From the NCBI RefSeq assembly GCF_014190875.1, contig NZ_JACHVS010000001.1, positions 62,001-126,000 of the forward strand: DNA of 64,000 bases, in the 5' to 3' direction. This document shows, in pieces, positions 11,165-56,367 of the stretch (position 1 is the stretch's first letter; each line of letters begins with the position of its first letter). Position numbers and translations under genes: made by a program. This stretch comes from Paeniglutamicibacter cryotolerans. GTDB lineage: Bacteria > Actinomycetota > Actinomycetes > Actinomycetales > Micrococcaceae. The notes under the pieces are model-generated. The model was given only the letters and a program-made list of their open reading frames with translations. It did not search any database and was not told the DNA's origin.

Positions 11165-11437
11165 TCAGGCGTCGGGTTCGGTGGGGGTGGCTGGTGCGGC
11201 CGGCATTCCACCGGAAAGCAACGAGCTCAGGCGGGACGCCGTGGCCGCATTGTTGGCGGCTGCCGCGGCGCGGTTGACCTCGGCGACGGCTGCGATGACT
11301 TCCTGGCGCTGGATCCGCACGCCCTTGGGCGCGTCGATGCCGATCTTGATCGATTCACCGCGGACATCAAGGACGGTCACCACGATGTCCTCGCCAATCA
11401 GGATCTGTTCTCCGACCTTCCGGGTAAGTACCAGCAC
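11165..11437 (-). CDS. csrA: Carbon storage/translation regulator CsrA with long C-terminal tail
   Basis: A 90-residue RNA-binding protein with a GTG start. The core MLVLTRKVGEQILIGEDIVV...GIDAPKGVRIQRQEV is a standard CsrA fold. RNA-binding residues LTR near the N-terminus and the RxQRQEV region are intact. After residue about 60 there is an extra Ala-rich tail (AAAAANNAATASR...PTEPDA) that typical 61-75-residue CsrA proteins lack. In Gram-positives CsrA represses flagellin translation and is sequestered by FliW. fliW is at the other end of this cluster, and GGA-loop hairpins are present in the fliC and flgB leaders. Last gene of the fliM-to-csrA run. Confidence 0.93.
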   Translation of the reverse strand: MLVLTRKVGEQILIGEDIVVTVLDVRGESIKIGIDAPKGVRIQRQEVIAAVAEVNRAAAAANNAATASRLSSLLSGGMPAAPATPTEPDA

Positions 11438-11444
11438 CGGCTCA

Positions 11445-12503
11445 TCATAGCCCAGTAACGGGCTTCACCTTCGTTCGGGCGCGCCCGAAGGCAGCCACAT
11501 CCAACACCGGAAAGCCCAACTCATCCACTGTTTCCGGGCTCAGCGTCTCGGCCCGGTTCAGTGCCGCAACGGCATCGATCTGATGCACGGCACCCAGCGC
11601 CGCCAGCCATGCCGCACTGTCAACCGGTTTGCGCCCGGCATCGACGGCGGCCCAGAGCTGGTCCGGGGACAGGAGCTCGAGCGGTGCCAGCTGGGCCGCC
11701 ATGTCGGCCACCGGGTCCAGTGCCAGGGCGACGACCAGCGGAACACCGGCGGCCACCGCGCCGGCACGGGCGCCCAGCACGGCACGGCGGTCGGCCAGCG
11801 GCGCCACGGCGGCGGAACCTGCGGCGAACATCGCGGCCAGTTCGCCGACGGCCGCCACGATGGCACCCTCGGGTGCCAGCACGCGCGCGGCACCGTGCGC
11901 GTCGGCCCACAACCCGATCACCAGGACCAGGTCGCCGGGGCCGTGCAGCGGCAGCGGTCCGCGCGGCGCTGCGACATCCTGCGCTGCCAGCCGGGCCGGG
12001 CCCGGGAAAAGCGGAACCCGCACGCCCGGGCCGGTGGGTGTGGCAGCGGAGGCCGGTGCCGGTCCCGGCTCCAGCGCCCGTCGGCGCGGGGACTGCTCGA
12101 AGGCCAACTGGTCCATGACCCGGGCAAAGTCCGGGGTGCCGGTGGCAACCACCGGCTCCTCGCGCCCGTGGATCCTGGCTTCGGCACCCTCGGCCTCGGC
12201 CAGCAACGCGGCGATGCCCACCCGCGAGGCCGGCGCCGTGGCACGCGAGCGCCGACCGCGGGAAGCCGGTGCCGCCGGAACTGCCGGACCGGGAACGGCC
12301 GCGGGAACCGGGGCCGCAGGGCCCGTCCCCTCGTCCGGGATCTCGATGAGCGCCTCATAGTGGGTCCGGCCCAGGAAGCCGCCCACTCCCCCGCGCGTGA
12401 CCTTCTCGGCGGAAATGATCCGGGCTGCCGGTCCGTGCTCGGCCCGGATCCGCCTCGTCAGTTCCGCGGCGCTGGGTGCCTCAAGCCGTAATCTGCTCGG
12501 CAC
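11445..12503 (-). CDS. FlhF-like protein with degenerate GTPase domain
   Basis: 352 residues, GTG start overlapping the flhA stop by 23 bases. The N-terminus (LRLEAPSAAELTRRIRAEHG, then PAARIISAEKVTRGGVGGFLG) matches the FlhF N-terminal domain pattern. A Pro/Ala linker occupies about residues 60-190. The C-terminal part has the order of an SRP-type NG GTPase, but the P-loop position reads VIGLWADAHGAARVL with no GxxGxGKT. The end (LSPDQLWAAVDAGRKPVDSA, VDELGFPVLDV) resembles the tail of that fold. FlhF places flagella and normally needs GTP. This copy probably cannot bind GTP and may act as a scaffold. Position between flhA and csrA supports a flagellar role. Confidence 0.6.
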   Translation of the reverse strand: MPSRLRLEAPSAAELTRRIRAEHGPAARIISAEKVTRGGVGGFLGRTHYEALIEIPDEGTGPAAPVPAAVPGPAVPAAPASRGRRSRATAPASRVGIAALLAEAEGAEARIHGREEPVVATGTPDFARVMDQLAFEQSPRRRALEPGPAPASAATPTGPGVRVPLFPGPARLAAQDVAAPRGPLPLHGPGDLVLVIGLWADAHGAARVLAPEGAIVAAVGELAAMFAAGSAAVAPLADRRAVLGARAGAVAAGVPLVVALALDPVADMAAQLAPLELLSPDQLWAAVDAGRKPVDSAAWLAALGAVHQIDAVAALNRAETLSPETVDELGFPVLDVAAFGRARTKVKPVTGL

Positions 12504-31328: not shown

Positions 31329-31717
31329 TAGTTGCGTCCGATCTGAAGTGCTGCCTGGTAGGTTTCCTTGGCTCGGTCGACCACTGCCGCATTGGCCTGG
31401 TAGCCGCGCTGGGCCATGATGAGCGCACCCATCTGTTCGGACATGTCGATGTCCGGGTAGCGGACGTTGCCGTCCGCGTCGGCTAACGGGTGGTTTGGTT
31501 CGTGCACGATGCGCCCCTGCGCGTCGCCGAACTCGACGCCATCCACGTGCACGCCCTGCCCCGAGGCATCGGCGCGGGCGACGATGTAGCGGGCACGGAA
31601 GGCATCGCCGGAGGTGGCGGTGGCCGTGTTGACGTTGGCCAGGTTGTCCGCAACGGCATCGAGCCATTTGCGGTGCACCGTCAGGGCGGTTCCGGCAATG
31701 CCGATGGCGTCGGGCAT
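31328..31717 (-). CDS. flgC: Flagellar proximal rod protein FlgC
   Basis: 129 residues. Rod signatures at both ends: IAGTALTVHRKWLDAVADNL then ANVNTA near the N-terminus, and DMSEQMGALIMAQRGYQANA followed by AVVDRAKETYQAALQIGRN at the C-terminus. ATG at 31717 overlaps the flgB stop (TAATG). Confidence 0.95.
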   Translation of the reverse strand: MPDAIGIAGTALTVHRKWLDAVADNLANVNTATATSGDAFRARYIVARADASGQGVHVDGVEFGDAQGRIVHEPNHPLADADGNVRYPDIDMSEQMGALIMAQRGYQANAAVVDRAKETYQAALQIGRN

Positions 31718-32058
31718 TAGTTGCTCCTCAGCGCGGTGCGGATAGCGTTGAGCGGGCCTGAGGCAGCCTGGGCGGCGAACTGGAAGCGCAGCACCGTATC
31801 GATGTTCGACAGCGTCTCGGTATCCAGGTTCACGTTTGAGCCGTCCAACCGGGTCGGCTCGAGTGAGGTCGAGGTGGTGGCGCTGTTGCGGCCGTTGCCA
31901 TTGGCAATGGACCGGGACAGGGAGTCCTCGAAATCGACGCGACGGGCGTGGAAACCGGGGGTGTTGACGTTGGCAACGTTGTTGGCGATGGCACGTTGGC
32001 GCATCGCCAAACCGTCGAGGGCGCTTTCCAGGGCCAACGACGTGACGGATTCGAACAC
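31717..32058 (-). CDS. flgB: Flagellar proximal rod protein FlgB
   Basis: 113 residues. GTG start at 32058 (GGAG ten bases upstream). It begins MFESVTSLALESALDGLAMR and carries QRAIANNVANVNTPGFHARR, the rod-protein N-terminal motif. It is the first gene of the flgB-to-flgE basal-body/hook operon of 14 genes. The leader contains a sigma-28-like promoter and a hairpin with GGA in its loop; the GGAG of the ribosome binding site offers a second GGA for CsrA. Confidence 0.92.
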   Translation of the reverse strand: MFESVTSLALESALDGLAMRQRAIANNVANVNTPGFHARRVDFEDSLSRSIANGNGRNSATTSTSLEPTRLDGSNVNLDTETLSNIDTVLRFQFAAQAASGPLNAIRTALRSN

Positions 32059-32108
32059 GACGGGGTTGCTCCAGGGTCGTTCTGCAGCCCATCCGTGGGC
32101 ATGAAGGG

Positions 32109-32129
32109 GTAGAGCGATCCATGCTCTAC
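32109..32129 (-). promoter_or_regulatory. Leader hairpin of flgB with AUGGAU loop (candidate CsrA site)
   Basis: On the minus strand GTAGAGC-ATGGATC-GCTCTAC: a perfect 7-bp stem with a 7-base loop holding ANGGAN. It begins 7 bases after the -10 element, so it should be at the very 5' end of the mRNA. The same loop sequence occurs in the fliC leader. CsrA binds GGA in hairpin loops. Confidence 0.6.
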
Positions 32130-32135
32130 TGCACA

Positions 32136-32162
32136 CCATCGGCAGGCGCTGACCTGCCGTTA
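32136..32162 (-). promoter_or_regulatory. Sigma-28-like promoter of the flgB operon
   Basis: Minus strand: GCTAACGG with TAAC at 32162-32159, 15-base spacer, GCCGATGG at 32143-32136. The predicted transcript start is near 32129. It begins 12 bases downstream of the end of the fliT-like gene. Confidence 0.7.
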
Positions 32163-32173
32163 GCTGTTTCTGT

Positions 32174-32900: not shown

Positions 32901-34210
32901 TAGTTGTTCTGCGAGTTGTTCGGCAACGAACCCAGCTGCGAGATCAAATAGCCGGACTGCGCATTCAGCTTGCTCAGCTGGACCTCCAGTGCCGCATAGG
33001 TGCGCTTGAGGGTCGCCTCACGGGTGGCCAGACGTCGATCCCAGTCCATGATCTGCCCATCAAGGCGCTTGGCCATCGATTCCTGGCCAGTGATCCTGGT
33101 AGTGATCTGCCCGTCATACTTATCGGATAGTGTCTCCGCAACCCCGGTCACACGGCTGGAAATAGCCTGCAGCACCTTTTCGACGCGTGCCGGGTCATCG
33201 TTCAGCGCTTTAGCGAACTTCTCGGCATCGAAGTCGATCGACCCGTTGCGGTTGACCGAAATGCCGATCTCCGAGGGGGAACGTCCATCAACCGGGCCGA
33301 TGGCAGCATCCATGATCCTGCGGTTGACATCGCGAACGGTGCCGTCTCCAGTGAAGATCATCCCGGAGGTCGCCCCTTCGGAGCCTGCAGTGACTGCCGA
33401 GTTCGTGGCAATGAATTTAAACAGCCCATTGAGTGACTCCACCAAGCCGGCGGCTACCTTCGAGGAAGCTTCGGTATCCCGACCGATGGTGAGCGTAACT
33501 GGTTCGGTGGAGGCCTTGGAGACGCTCACGTCGACCCCGTGCATCAGGGCTGTGAAGGTATTCGTGGCCGAGGAGATCGTTTGCTCGGCGTCGGTTCCTG
33601 TCCACAGGGTGACTTGTGCGTCCTGGGCGACGCGAATCTCAGTCAGCGGCACTGTGCTGCCGCTGATGGAGAAGGAGTTCTTCTCGCCGGAATCGGCTGA
33701 GGTGAACTGCACGCGGAATTCACCGTTACCGGCAGCCACCTTGACCGCCTTGACCCCGGATGCGGAGGCGTTGACGGCCTTGATCACGTCGTCCAGCGAG
33801 TTCGACGCGGCGCTGATCGTGGTTTCACTGCCGTCGTTGGCGGTGATGGTGAAGGAGTCCGAATCCCATTCGGCGATCGGTCCGGAGACGATGAGCTGGC
33901 TTTGTGCCGTTTGCTTAACAGTCAGTTCCAACGATCCGGGCGCGGCCCCAGCACCGGCGGTGACCTTAATGGCATCAGAGCTCGTAGATGTACTGAACAA
34001 CTGCAGCGAATCGGGCTTGGCCGACTTGGCGGCAAGCTTGGCAAGGTCGGCGACCTTGGTATTCAGTGCCTGAAGCGCAGTAACCATCGTCTGGGTCGAC
34101 TTGGACTTGTTCTTCAGAATGTTCTGCGGGATCGCCTCGACCTGCATCAGTGACTTGATCAATGCCGCGGTGTCCAAGCCACTGGCGAGTCCGTCAAGTG
34201 CCAGGCCCAT
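32900..34210 (-). CDS. fliD: Flagellar filament cap protein FliD
   Basis: 436 residues. ATG at 34210 is chosen because GGAGG lies 4 bases upstream and the N-terminus MGLALDGLASGLDTAALIKS, then LMQVEAIP, matches the family; a GTG at 34243 is less likely. The C-terminal helix region (YDGQITTRITGQESMAKRLD then GQIMDWDRRLATREATLKRT) contacts filament subunits and is followed by QSGYLISQLGSLPNNSQNN. Caps the filament and folds incoming flagellin. Follows fliC; the leader contains no sigma-28-like site that I can see. Confidence 0.94.
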   Translation of the reverse strand: MGLALDGLASGLDTAALIKSLMQVEAIPQNILKNKSKSTQTMVTALQALNTKVADLAKLAAKSAKPDSLQLFSTSTSSDAIKVTAGAGAAPGSLELTVKQTAQSQLIVSGPIAEWDSDSFTITANDGSETTISAASNSLDDVIKAVNASASGVKAVKVAAGNGEFRVQFTSADSGEKNSFSISGSTVPLTEIRVAQDAQVTLWTGTDAEQTISSATNTFTALMHGVDVSVSKASTEPVTLTIGRDTEASSKVAAGLVESLNGLFKFIATNSAVTAGSEGATSGMIFTGDGTVRDVNRRIMDAAIGPVDGRSPSEIGISVNRNGSIDFDAEKFAKALNDDPARVEKVLQAISSRVTGVAETLSDKYDGQITTRITGQESMAKRLDGQIMDWDRRLATREATLKRTYAALEVQLSKLNAQSGYLISQLGSLPNNSQNN

Positions 34211-34245
34211 GCTGCCTCCGTTTTCGTGTGCTGGTGGTGCCACAA

Positions 34246-34403: not shown

Positions 34404-35234
34404 CTAGCGCAGGAGCGAAAGGACACCCTGGTTGGACTGGTTGGCCTGCGCGAGCATGGCGGTACCTGCCTGGGACAGGATGTTCTTGGCAGTGAACTTA
34501 ACCATTTCGCCGGCCATGTCAACATCGCGGATGCGGGATTCGGCAGCCGCGAGGTTTTCGCGCGAGACGTTCAGCGAGTTGATCGCCGACTCGAAGCGGT
34601 TCTGCACTGCGCCGATCTCGGAGCGCTGTGTGGAGATGGCCGTGATCTCGGTGTCGACCGATGCGATGCTTGTCAGCGCGACGGCGGAATCGACGTAGGT
34701 CAGGGCCTTGACGGTGGCACCGAGTGTTGCCAAGTTGGTCCCGGTGAGGTCAACGCCGATCTGGTCATTGGCGGCGGTCGAGCCCGCGCCGACCTGGAAG
34801 GTCAGGTCTGCGCTGCCGTCAAGCAGCGCGATGCCGTTGAAGTTCGTGGCACCGCCGATGCGGATCAGCTCGTCGCCCAGCGCATCGGATTCGGCCTTGA
34901 TGGCCTCACGCGATTCAGTATTATTCGAGTCGTTGCCGGACTGCACGGCCAGGTCTCGGACTCGCTGCAGGATGGAGTGGACCTCGGTCAGGGCGCCTTC
35001 AGCGGTCTGGATGACCGAGATGCCGTCCTGGGCGTTGCGGGCTGCAACAGCCAGGCCGTTGACCTGTGAGCGCAGGCCCTCAGAGATGGACAGGCCTGCC
35101 GCGTCATCTGCTGCGCGGTTGATGCGCAGGCCGGAGGATAGCTTCTCCAGCGACTTCGACAGGTCGTTCTGCGTGTTGGACAGGTTCCGGTGAGCGTTCA
35201 TCGCCGAAATGTTCGTGTTGATCTGCATACCCAT
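34404..35234 (-). CDS. fliC: Flagellin
   Basis: 276 residues. ATG at 35234 lies 8 bases after GGAGG. The D0/D1 signatures are intact at both ends: MQINTNISAMNAHRNLSNTQ, LSSGLRINRAADDAAGLSIS and, C-terminally, AESRIRDVDMAGEMVKFTAK then NILSQAGTAMLAQANQSNQG followed by VLSLLR. The variable outer domain is very small, so this is a minimal flagellin like Bacillus Hag. The leader shows a sigma-28-like promoter and a hairpin exposing AUGGAU, plus GGA in the ribosome binding site, which suggests CsrA repression relieved by FliW. Confidence 0.97.
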   Translation of the reverse strand: MGMQINTNISAMNAHRNLSNTQNDLSKSLEKLSSGLRINRAADDAAGLSISEGLRSQVNGLAVAARNAQDGISVIQTAEGALTEVHSILQRVRDLAVQSGNDSNNTESREAIKAESDALGDELIRIGGATNFNGIALLDGSADLTFQVGAGSTAANDQIGVDLTGTNLATLGATVKALTYVDSAVALTSIASVDTEITAISTQRSEIGAVQNRFESAINSLNVSRENLAAAESRIRDVDMAGEMVKFTAKNILSQAGTAMLAQANQSNQGVLSLLR

Positions 35235-35266
35235 GGTGAATTCCTCCGTGAGACGGGTGTTTGTCA

Positions 35267-35286
35267 GGGGCCCATCCATGGGCCCC
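35267..35286 (-). promoter_or_regulatory. Leader hairpin of fliC with AUGGAU loop (candidate CsrA site)
   Basis: On the minus strand GGGGCCC-ATGGAT-GGGCCCC: a perfect 7-bp GC stem with a six-base loop of the form ANGGAN, the preferred CsrA target. It starts 9 bases after the -10 element, at the expected 5' end of the mRNA. A second GGA lies in the ribosome binding site (CACGGAGGAATTC) about 20 bases further on. Bacillus hag mRNA has the same two-site design. Confidence 0.72.
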
Positions 35287-35294
35287 ACACCCTC

Positions 35295-35321
35295 CTATCG
35301 GCCGGCCTTCGAAATCCGTTA
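35295..35321 (-). promoter_or_regulatory. Sigma-28-like promoter of fliC
   Basis: Minus strand: GCTAACGG with TAAC at 35321-35318, 15-base spacer, GCCGATAG at 35302-35295. The sigma-28 consensus is TAAA-N15-GCCGATAA. The -35 element contains the TAA stop codon of fliA (35321-35319). Confidence 0.8.
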
Positions 35322-36176
35322 GCCGACTGGGAGTTTCTTTTCATGATTAACAGGGAAACCCGACGAGGCCGATGAATTACGCGTCAAACCCCCGGCCGTC
35401 CGCTGGCCGAATTCGGCCAGGTATTCTTCGCGGCGGCGTTCGGCCGAGCGGGTCAGTACTATCGGAACCGCCGGCTTTTCCTCGGACAGGTATCCGGACT
35501 GCAGGCCCTCTTGGATGAGCTTGATGGCAGCTGTCCGTCGTTGCGATACGGCCGAGTGGGTCACACCGAGCTCTGCGGCGAGCTCCTTGACGGTACTCCC
35601 CCTGAAGTAGACACTCTCGATGACCAGACGGAGGTTTTCCGGCAGCGCATCGACCGCAGAGCGGACCGTCTGGGTTCGTTCAGCATCAAGCGCTTGCTCC
35701 TCGGGGCTTTGGGTATCAGAGCTCAGGTAGTCGGCCATGGCATCATCTATCCCCACCACCGTGCGTTCGGCATTGCCGAGTACCGCAAGAACTTCGCCTT
35801 GGCTGATACCCATGGTTTCGGCGAGTTCCGCGACGGTGGGCTGGCGTCCCAGCGCACCGCTCAGGGCCTCTTGGGCCGAACGGGTCTCGGTCATCCGCCG
35901 GCGGGCACCGCGGGTCGCCCAGTCGTTCGAGCGCATGTCGTCGGCAAAGGCGCCGACGATTCGGCGTCTGGCATAGGCTCCGAAAGGTACCCCCAGCGCG
36001 GAATTGTACGAGCCTGCTGCAGTCATCAGGGCAATGGCTCCGACAGAGACCAGGTCTTCACGGGAGAGATGGGTGGCCTTGGCACACAACTCCGATGCGA
36101 GATACCCCACCAGCGGAAGATTTTCTACCACCAGACGGTTGCGCGCGTCTTGATCCAATTTGGGAATCCTCAGCAT
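35319..36176 (-). CDS. fliA: Flagellar sigma factor FliA/WhiG family (sigma-28)
   Basis: 285 residues. Region 2 is ARNRLVVENLPLVGYLASEL, LSREDLVSVGAIALMTAAGS and FGAYARRRIVGAFADDMRSN followed by DWATRGARRR. Region 3 includes TVAELAETMGISQGEVLAVL. Region 4 is LPENLRLVIESVYFRGSTVK followed by ELAAELGVTHSAVSQRRTAA. An extra 40-residue Ser/Arg-rich C-terminal tail follows. No flgM anti-sigma gene is seen in the window. It very likely reads the five GCCGATAG-type promoters listed here. No clear ribosome binding site precedes the ATG at 36176. Confidence 0.92.
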   Translation of the reverse strand: MLRIPKLDQDARNRLVVENLPLVGYLASELCAKATHLSREDLVSVGAIALMTAAGSYNSALGVPFGAYARRRIVGAFADDMRSNDWATRGARRRMTETRSAQEALSGALGRQPTVAELAETMGISQGEVLAVLGNAERTVVGIDDAMADYLSSDTQSPEEQALDAERTQTVRSAVDALPENLRLVIESVYFRGSTVKELAAELGVTHSAVSQRRTAAIKLIQEGLQSGYLSEEKPAVPIVLTRSAERRREEYLAEFGQRTAGGLTRNSSASSGFPVNHEKKLPVG

Positions 36177-55815: not shown

Positions 55816-56367
55816 TCATTCGCTGCCAGAACCTCCACGGGCCAGGTAGATCCCCTTGGCATAGGCGGCCTGACCGATGTGCTGGCCCGTCTCATTGAGC
55901 ACGGAGATCAGCCGCACGCCGGCGCTGACCTGTGGAGTGAAACGGGCGTCGACGATTTTCACATAGTCCTCCGCGGTCAGTTGGCGAACGATGCCCGTCG
56001 TCACTTCCTGCACCCGCTCGTGGTAGCCGGCAAGCAACCCGGGATCGCCCACACAGAATCCCGCCACCTCCTCCTCGCTGTGGCCATAGCCGGTATCCCA
56101 CCGACCATACGGCAGCGCAAAACGCTCGTCCCAACCCCCTTCGCCCCAGCATTGGCCCGACACCGCGTCAAAGCCCAGGGCCCGGGCCAGGCCCGCCATA
56201 TGGTCGTCCTGGACACGGGTCAGGTGCCACAGCAGCCAGCCCACGGAATTCGCCCGGGGTCCGGGCCGGTGCAGCAGCAACTGCCCGTCCGCGCCCTCGA
56301 GCACCTCGTTGACAGACTCCCGGATCCTGCCGAAACCGTCCAACAGCAATTCAGTGGCAATCCACAT
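55816..56367 (-). CDS. DinB-like / DUF664 four-helix protein
   Basis: 183 residues, ATG at 56367 after GAAGGAG. Four-helix DinB fold: ELLLDGFGRIRESVNEVLEG, SVGWLLWHLTRVQDDHMAGL (His48), VTTGIVRQLTAEDYVKIVDA and SVLNETGQHIGQAAYAKGIY (His163). The spaced histidines are the usual divalent-metal ligands. Members in actinobacteria include mycothiol-dependent S-transferases (MST family); activity here is not proven. Stands alone between glmS and acpS. Confidence 0.8.
   Translation of the reverse strand: MWIATELLLDGFGRIRESVNEVLEGADGQLLLHRPGPRANSVGWLLWHLTRVQDDHMAGLARALGFDAVSGQCWGEGGWDERFALPYGRWDTGYGHSEEEVAGFCVGDPGLLAGYHERVQEVTTGIVRQLTAEDYVKIVDARFTPQVSAGVRLISVLNETGQHIGQAAYAKGIYLARGGSGSE

Follow-up and report, generated by a model that had tools for sequence, protein, structure and literature searches.

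A hairpin predicted to stand at the 5' end of the flagellin (fliC) mRNA of Paeniglutamicibacter cryotolerans, and presenting an ANGGAN loop, is very probably a high-affinity CsrA site within a CsrA-FliW circuit acting on fliC, with CsrA very probably acting also on the leader of flgB. This assessment is based on the sequence, the predicted structure of the leader, covariation of the fliC stem, conservation among relatives and the joint loss of the loop with csrA and fliW. The broader reading, of a circuit common to the order Actinomycetales in which CsrA recognises the flagellin hairpin and Shine-Dalgarno (SD) sequence as well as a tandem pair of hairpins before flgB, appears moderately probable on the same comparisons. 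The window referred to throughout is the whole 64,000-nucleotide stretch analysed, and the features under discussion are collected in Table 1.

Table 1. Features of the flagellar region, in window coordinates
Feature	Positions	Strand	Basis
csrA, 90 aa, GTG start	11165..11437	-	PF02599, 75.7 bits
flgB, rod protein, first gene of rod/export run	31717..32058	-	Flg_bb_rod; GTG start set by comparison
flgB leader hairpin 2, GCCC-ACGGAU-GGGC, predicted CsrA site	32087..32100	-	hairpin model, 20.5 bits
flgB leader hairpin 1, GUAGAGC-AUGGAUC-GCUCUAC, predicted CsrA site	32109..32129	-	in minimum free energy structure
GCCGATG, -10-like box before flgB; CTAA at 32160-32163, 16 nt between	32137..32143	-	by reading
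fliC, flagellin, 276 aa	34404..35234	-	Flagellin_N and Flagellin_C
CACGGAGGA, second ANGGA, over flagellin ribosome binding site, predicted CsrA site 2	35242..35250	-	sequence
fliC leader hairpin, predicted CsrA site 1	35267..35286	-	sequence, folding, CANGGANG comparison with covarying stem
GCCGATA, -10-like box of sigma-28-like fliC promoter	35296..35302	-	sequence
CTAA, -35-like; TAA is the fliA stop codon	35319..35322	-	sequence
fliA-like sigma factor	35319..36176	-	Sigma70 r2, r3, r4
fliW, 124 aa	39176..39550	+	PF02623, 75.1 bits; PDB match 5dmb_A

The fliC leader hairpin and its genetic context

Read letter by letter, the minus strand from 35286 to 35267 is GGGGCCC-AUGGAU-GGGCCCC, with the loop GGA at 35277-35275. 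The first-pass annotation had described a perfect stem with an ANGGAN hexaloop at this location; the sequence is exact and folds as stated, RNAfold additionally pairing the A and U of the loop to give 8 bp and a UGGA tetraloop. The isolated 20-mer has a folding energy of -16.5 kcal/mol (z -2.14; equalled by 3 of 200 shuffles), and the hairpin is retained in the minimum free energy (MFE) structures of both the 65- and the 81-nt fliC leaders, the energies of these whole leaders being ordinary (z -0.63 and -0.75, respectively). When up to three mismatches are permitted, the 20-mer matches its own site alone in the window, once per strand, with 0.03 matches expected by chance. The observation of the hairpin is confirmed, then, and is far from chance. 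No Rfam family scored at or above its gathering score in the window, and the three weak matches near the fliC site (E 0.8 to 6.5) were all to unrelated families.

A second GGA, described in the same annotation as lying in the ribosome binding site, was likewise located, as part of CACGGAGGA, where it is positioned 30 nt downstream of the loop GGA and shortly before the flagellin ATG at 35234. A stem is also possible across the fliC SD, between ACCC and GGGU at the start codon. The SD of fliD (approximately 34195-34215, minus strand) is also an ANGGA, AACGGAGGC, and is a possible weak CsrA site.

Upstream of fliC, the CTAA and GCCGATA elements are separated by 16 nt and fit a putative sigma-28-like promoter. 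On this basis the hairpin is predicted to start about two bases 3' of the fliC transcript start.

The genetic context is as had been proposed, in that csrA and fliW flank the flagellar genes that were tested. Pfam searches support the assignment of fliC, fliA, fliD, fliS, flgN, flgK, flhA and fliW in the window, and the frame at 38301-39179 matches Flagellin_N and is assigned as flgL by position. In the run from flgB to csrA, the flagellar genes tested by Pfam are on the minus strand and match FliF, FliG, a FliI-like ATPase, FlgD, FlgE, MotA, a FliMN_C protein, FliR and FlhA. Between flhA and csrA is a 352-aa frame (11445-12503, minus strand) with no Pfam match, the stop codon of which is 7 nt before the csrA GTG. 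The nearest solved relative of the predicted CsrA is 5dmb_D, i.e. CsrA complexed with FliW, aligned over residues 2-72 of 90; the alignment extends past the RNA-binding core, and the protein accordingly has the C-terminal extension.

Conservation of the loop and of the SD site in fliC leaders

Flagellin was found in 11/15 genomes of the same genus, in 126/395 genomes of the family and in 76/258 genomes of the order, 68 of the latter being outside the family. The leaders examined comprise 127 from 124 genomes of the family and 82 from 64 genomes of the order, or 209 from 188. Six genomes do not enter the counts: G340 and G359 of the family, in which flagellin is cut; G454 and G532 of the order, in which it is cut or partial; and G439 and G519 of the order, which were overlooked. 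The motif CANGGANG is present 36-62 nt before the start codon in 206/209 leaders (125/127 in the family and 81/82 in other families of the order); since it was used as the anchor of the 206 blocks, its invariance within those is by construction, and the free count is 206/209. The persistence of a GGA loop in close relatives that keep fliC, on which the original proposal was to stand or fall, is evident from these figures. The sole order leader without CANGGANG (L180) has a 7-pair stem and an ACGGAA loop, the closing pair being U-G in place of C-G. When judged against the CsrA/RsmE consensus for an apical-loop GGA site, as worded in excerpts of PMC4894983, the window and 206/209 leaders have the GGA, an A two bases before it and a loop closed by C-G; the base preceding the loop GGA is a pyrimidine in 202/206 leaders.

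In contrast to the loop, the arms vary, with 46 different 5+5 arms among the leaders (GAGGUCC, GGCCC, CCGGUCC, GGGAGCC, ACCC etc.), and the stem has at least four contiguous pairs in 187/206. A scan of the last 200 nt of the family leaders revealed GGA hexaloops with at least five pairs in 110/127, versus no more than 9 for any other triplet; in four of these 110 (L048, L050, L113 and L114) the best loop is other than the conserved one. The position of the hairpin is also constrained. The presumed -10 box, a [CTG]CGA word, occurs 24-26 nt before the hairpin GGA in 179/206 leaders, and this near-fixed distance links the hairpin to the probable start of transcription.

The last 25 nt before the start codon hold an ANGGA in 202/206 leaders, placing a second candidate site at the flagellin SD, most often in the form CACGGAGGA (145 leaders), followed by CAAGGAGGA (16), CATGGAGGA (15) and others that are fewer. 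The distance between the two GGAs is 23-40 nt in 201/202 leaders, most commonly 29-30. For comparison, CAC precedes GGAGG in 2/91 SD-like sites, the window included, in a crude set drawn from 16 own-genome stretches plus the window and containing false frames. The SD site bears on whether the leader might serve mainly as an mRNA sponge that titrates CsrA, as opposed to a site at which flagellin is repressed. Long stems could feasibly give the high affinity appropriate to a sponge, and in the sections of PMC4894983 relied on here the Campylobacter flaA leader is described as both titrating CsrA and being repressed by it; yet a pure sponge would not need an SD site, and a predominantly titrating role seems unlikely.

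Covariation of the fliC stem

Covariation of the stem around a fixed GGA loop had been suggested as a check on the proposal, and the arms do indeed change by compensatory pairs. In a gap-free alignment of 66 leaders (the window and no more than two leaders from each genus), the score for covariation is 0.461 versus 0.146 for shuffled alignments, a value as high being reached in 0/500 shuffles, and sliding the arms by one column reduces it to 0.158 or less. Similarly, 82.4% of cells are paired versus 62.8% when shuffled (0/500 as high), and 103 cells are changed on both sides versus 40.3 (0/500 as high). Two-sided change affects 7 of the 8 pairs; the shuffled value is 5.6 with 7/500 as high, so this measure is less telling. 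When each of 43 genera is represented by a single leader, pairs 3-7 are standard in 81%, whereas they are standard in 52% when the 3' arms are re-dealt (highest of 200, 58.6%) and in no more than 48.5% when slid.

An inverted repeat acting as DNA, bound by a transcription factor just 3' of the promoter, would also explain a near-palindrome whose distance from the -10 box is constant. G-U pairs are clearly in excess of A-C mismatches at pair 4 alone (8 versus 1) and nearly equal to them at pairs 5-7, with which a DNA site is compatible, and the mismatch test therefore fails to separate RNA from DNA. A DNA operator, however, keeps its arms, whereas in the fliC leaders the arms vary and the loop is fixed; moreover, the flgB leader has two copies of the same loop, on different stems. 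A DNA site is thus highly improbable, and recognition of the loop in RNA by CsrA is the preferred reading.

Loss of the loop together with csrA and fliW

Both csrA and fliW were matched in 125/395 family genomes. One of the csrA matches is a gene with a stop (G002, which has no flagellin), and one of the fliW matches is in G048, an incomplete genome with no flagellin match. The remnant in G002, which belongs to the same genus as P. cryotolerans, is located at C2:46405-46554 with one stop codon and without flagellin or fliW matches in the genome, perhaps reflecting a decaying motility cluster. Among the 126 flagellin-bearing family genomes, csrA is missing only in G118 and G147, which are of one genus and are both also without fliW, and it is these genomes that supply the two family leaders lacking CANGGANG (L108 and L113). 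Both leaders keep an 8-pair stem, CGGGUCCG with a GGGUCCG-type partner, and ANGGA is gone from their loops, which are CAGGAA in L113 and GGGCAA in L108 (the latter read by eye); the L113 loop retains GGA, only the A of ANGGA being missing. Both genomes retain fliC, fliA, fliD, fliS, flgN, flgK, flgL and flhA within 40 kb, and tblastn searches of this 40-kb flagellar region matched neither CsrA nor FliW. A 437-aa frame on the minus strand comes after flgL in G118. In the flagellin tree, the flagellins of G118 and G147 sit inside the clade of the order, on a long branch beside family f13 (94/92), and loss is therefore more likely than original absence.

Loss of the site with csrA and fliW was hence seen in two genomes of one genus, amounting to one event, in which one leader keeps its GGA. 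This co-loss of the ANGGA loop with both genes fits, and lends support to, the predicted role of CsrA. The hairpin is present with no csrA match in 3/68 order genomes (G424, G514 and G546), the assemblies of which are in 1060, 580 and 570 contigs, respectively, one being 88% complete.

Since the stem survives without csrA in L108 and L113, it may serve something besides CsrA, or else be a relic. A general 5' stem-loop that shields an abundant fliC mRNA from nucleases, with CsrA not needed, would account for retention of the stem in these two genomes, and also for the predicted 5' location, the nearly fixed distance from the -10 box and the four or more contiguous pairs found in most leaders. 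Such a structure needs no fixed loop, though, and CANGGANG is carried by 206/209 leaders on many different arms, GGA outnumbers every other hexaloop triplet in the family leaders, and it is the loop, not the stem, that disappears along with csrA and fliW. Protection of this kind is consequently regarded as improbable, and a CsrA site is preferred.

Tandem hairpins in the flgB leader

With a covariance model built on the fliC hairpin, the fliC site came first in the window (30.4 bits) and 32108-32077, before flgB, second (20.5 bits). In a search of the whole genome, which gave 22 matches up to E 10, all those after fliC are weak, at 22.0 bits or less, and the flgB site is fifth, with an E value of 0.36 that is not significant by itself; it was taken up because of its position, as the score would not single it out. 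Nine of the other model matches were inspected, each of which overlaps a stop-to-stop open frame of at least 173 aa on one strand, some also being without the loop GGA. The third match in the window, at 56231-56276 on the plus strand (19.2 bits), has a large loop. The window contains 16 ANGGA hairpins with loops of 6 or 7, and those situated before a flagellar gene, by position, are the single fliC hairpin and the flgB pair, the latter being a candidate target that the first-pass annotation had missed.

In total, 80 genomes were searched for flgB and 51 leaders were read, comprising the window plus 30 and 20 loci. Two hairpins are present in 40/51 leaders, one in 8 and none in 3 (L476, L477 and L478); for named genome records the figures are two hairpins in 20/21 and one in 1. 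The csrA-less loci L401 and L403 have no ANGGA hairpin in the flgB leader. No leader (0/51) has two hairpins with any other loop triplet, and two ANGGA hairpins occur in 0.025% of 20,000 random own-genome stretches. The consensus is GAGC-ACGGAUC-GCUC followed by GGCC-ACGGAUC-GGCC, with the GGAs 20-28 nt apart (mode 23).

Covariation was analysed in the 40 two-hairpin leaders, in which the inner four pairs are paired by selection. For hairpin 1 it is modest, with a score of 0.198 versus 0.117 (0/500 as high) and 79.9% versus 74.8% of cells paired. For hairpin 2, pairing over pairs 1-7 is no better than with shuffled arms (0.660 versus 0.644); its third pair is G-C in 29/40 leaders and C-G in 10/40. 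Hairpin 2 is outside the MFE structure of the window leader and forms in those of L442 and L451, the energies of the three leaders being ordinary (z -1.12, 0.68 and 0.63 for the window, L442 and L451, respectively). The flgB SD in the window is not an ANGGA; the SDs of other flgB genes were read by eye.

In 57/67 genomes with both genes on one contig, csrA follows flgB on the same strand, at a median of 21.4 kb; of the 80 genomes, 13 have the genes on different contigs, and the ten exceptions are six f15 genomes, three f17 genomes and G577. Because of this arrangement, CsrA may act on its own operon, the genes from flgB to csrA presumably being borne on a single transcript. CsrA could repress flgB through the closeness of the hairpins to the start codon, could protect the 5' end as it does for E. 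coli flhDC, or could itself be titrated by the leader, with repression slightly ahead.

Distribution beyond the order

A pattern derived from the fliC leaders (CCACGGAYGG-N10-40-TCACGGAGGA) was run, with no gene named, on 84,980 species and identified at least 119 stretches. Among the matches listed, flagellin is the next frame in 63/80 loci, and there is no flagellin downstream in 17/80. Two of these 63 flagellin loci are L322, labelled as an Acidobacteria MAG, and L292 (Armatimonadetes), both with an actinobacterial-type fliC hairpin and SD site; L322 has a one-hairpin flgB leader as well, which suggests either transfer or a MAG with the wrong label.

Outside the order, 26 flagellin loci were obtained from 44 flagellin genomes, of which 24 were readable. 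A CANGGANG loop with at least four pairs, 25-100 nt before the start codon, is present in 7/24 (L259, L262, L265, L266, L269, L272 and L273), although csrA is present in 26/26, and this patchiness indicates that the fliC hairpin is not general in the phylum. In L262 and L269 (family f41) the flagellin leader has UGGC-AAGGAA-GCCA approximately 22 nt before the SD, UCAAGGAGGA, which is itself within a possible hairpin, a layout that is related to, but different from, the fliC hairpin of the order.

Proposed mechanism and relation to known systems

The CsrA reading of the fliC leader, as put forward in the first-pass annotation, is strongly supported by comparison, namely by the 206/209 loops, the covariation and the co-loss described above, from which we infer CsrA binding, repression and relief by FliW. 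According to this scheme, one pocket of the CsrA dimer would be anchored on the ANGGAN loop at the 5' end of the fliC mRNA while the other would reach the weaker ACGGAGGA at the ribosome binding site some 30 nt away, blocking initiation by the ribosome and keeping flagellin low. Upon export of flagellin, free FliW would remove CsrA and translation would start. CsrA would also bind both of the hairpins with which the flgB operon mRNA is predicted to begin, and the operon, which runs towards csrA in most of these bacteria, would probably be under feedback from its own product.

CsrA regulation has been worked out in Gammaproteobacteria, Bacillus, Clostridioides, Campylobacter and Geobacter, as far as the portions of the literature drawn on here extend. 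A close parallel is Bacillus hag, where, according to the relevant section of PMC7652899, CsrA represses at two sites, one of them over the SD, and FliW relieves repression. The fliC leader resembles that of Bacillus subtilis hag in having two sites, here predicted, in a flagellin leader with one over the SD, and in the presence of FliW. It differs from hag in belonging to another phylum, in that its upstream site takes the form of a stable hairpin, situated at the predicted 5' end and found order-wide, and in the two further hairpins on flgB. The same part of PMC7652899 describes Escherichia coli CsrA SELEX ligands as having mostly four or fewer contiguous pairs; the fliC stem is longer and stronger than most of these, which counts against the CsrA reading.

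In Campylobacter jejuni, as set out in the passages of PMC4894983 cited here, the flaA leader has two GGA hexaloops 21 nt apart, near the 18-nt optimum for the dimer, and FliW is the antagonist. The hexaloops are of the CANGGANG type, as here, and their spacing resembles that of the flgB pair (20-28 nt); however, both C. jejuni hairpins are on the flagellin leader, whereas here it is flgB that bears the pair, flagellin having a single hairpin and the SD site. The same passages report that the C. jejuni flgB 5'UTR is hardly enriched with CsrA (1.6x and 0.7x). A leader of an early flagellar operon is nonetheless a CsrA target in E. coli, where, according to the account given in part of PMC2587704, CsrA acts on flhDC by stabilising the mRNA. 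The flgB leader is similar in having candidate CsrA sites on a flagellar operon leader; most flgB leaders have two such sites near the predicted 5' end, the window SD is not an ANGGA, and the layout may be of the flhDC type, although flhDC is a different gene and the effect demonstrated there is activation.

CsrA control of an actinobacterial flagellin is already in print, having been proposed in 2008 for Kineococcus radiotolerans (PMC2587704), in which, from the section in question, csrA is in a motility island and the flagellin SD matches the hag BS2 site at 9/12 bases. P. cryotolerans has in common with Kineococcus an actinobacterial csrA found with flagellar genes and a CsrA-type flagellin SD. 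The Kineococcus account, in the section concerned, includes no upstream hairpin, FliW, flgB leader or further genomes compared for the site, and what is new here is the tandem flgB leader. In the text available from a survey of actinobacterial flagella (PMC10746217), CsrA and FliW each appear once, as BLAST queries, and among the titles and abstract openings of the open-access literature no paper describing the hairpin or the flgB pair in actinobacteria was found.

The element described is a compact leader feature, readable by eye, that predicts CsrA targets across an actinobacterial order, and the predicted targets include the rod/export gene run, which is not marked as a target in Campylobacter. 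The one genus that has kept the stem, but in which the loop has degenerated along with csrA and fliW, provides a natural control. If the proposed circuit is correct, CsrA would set the expression of the basal body genes, of itself and of flagellin, and FliW would couple both to export of the filament.
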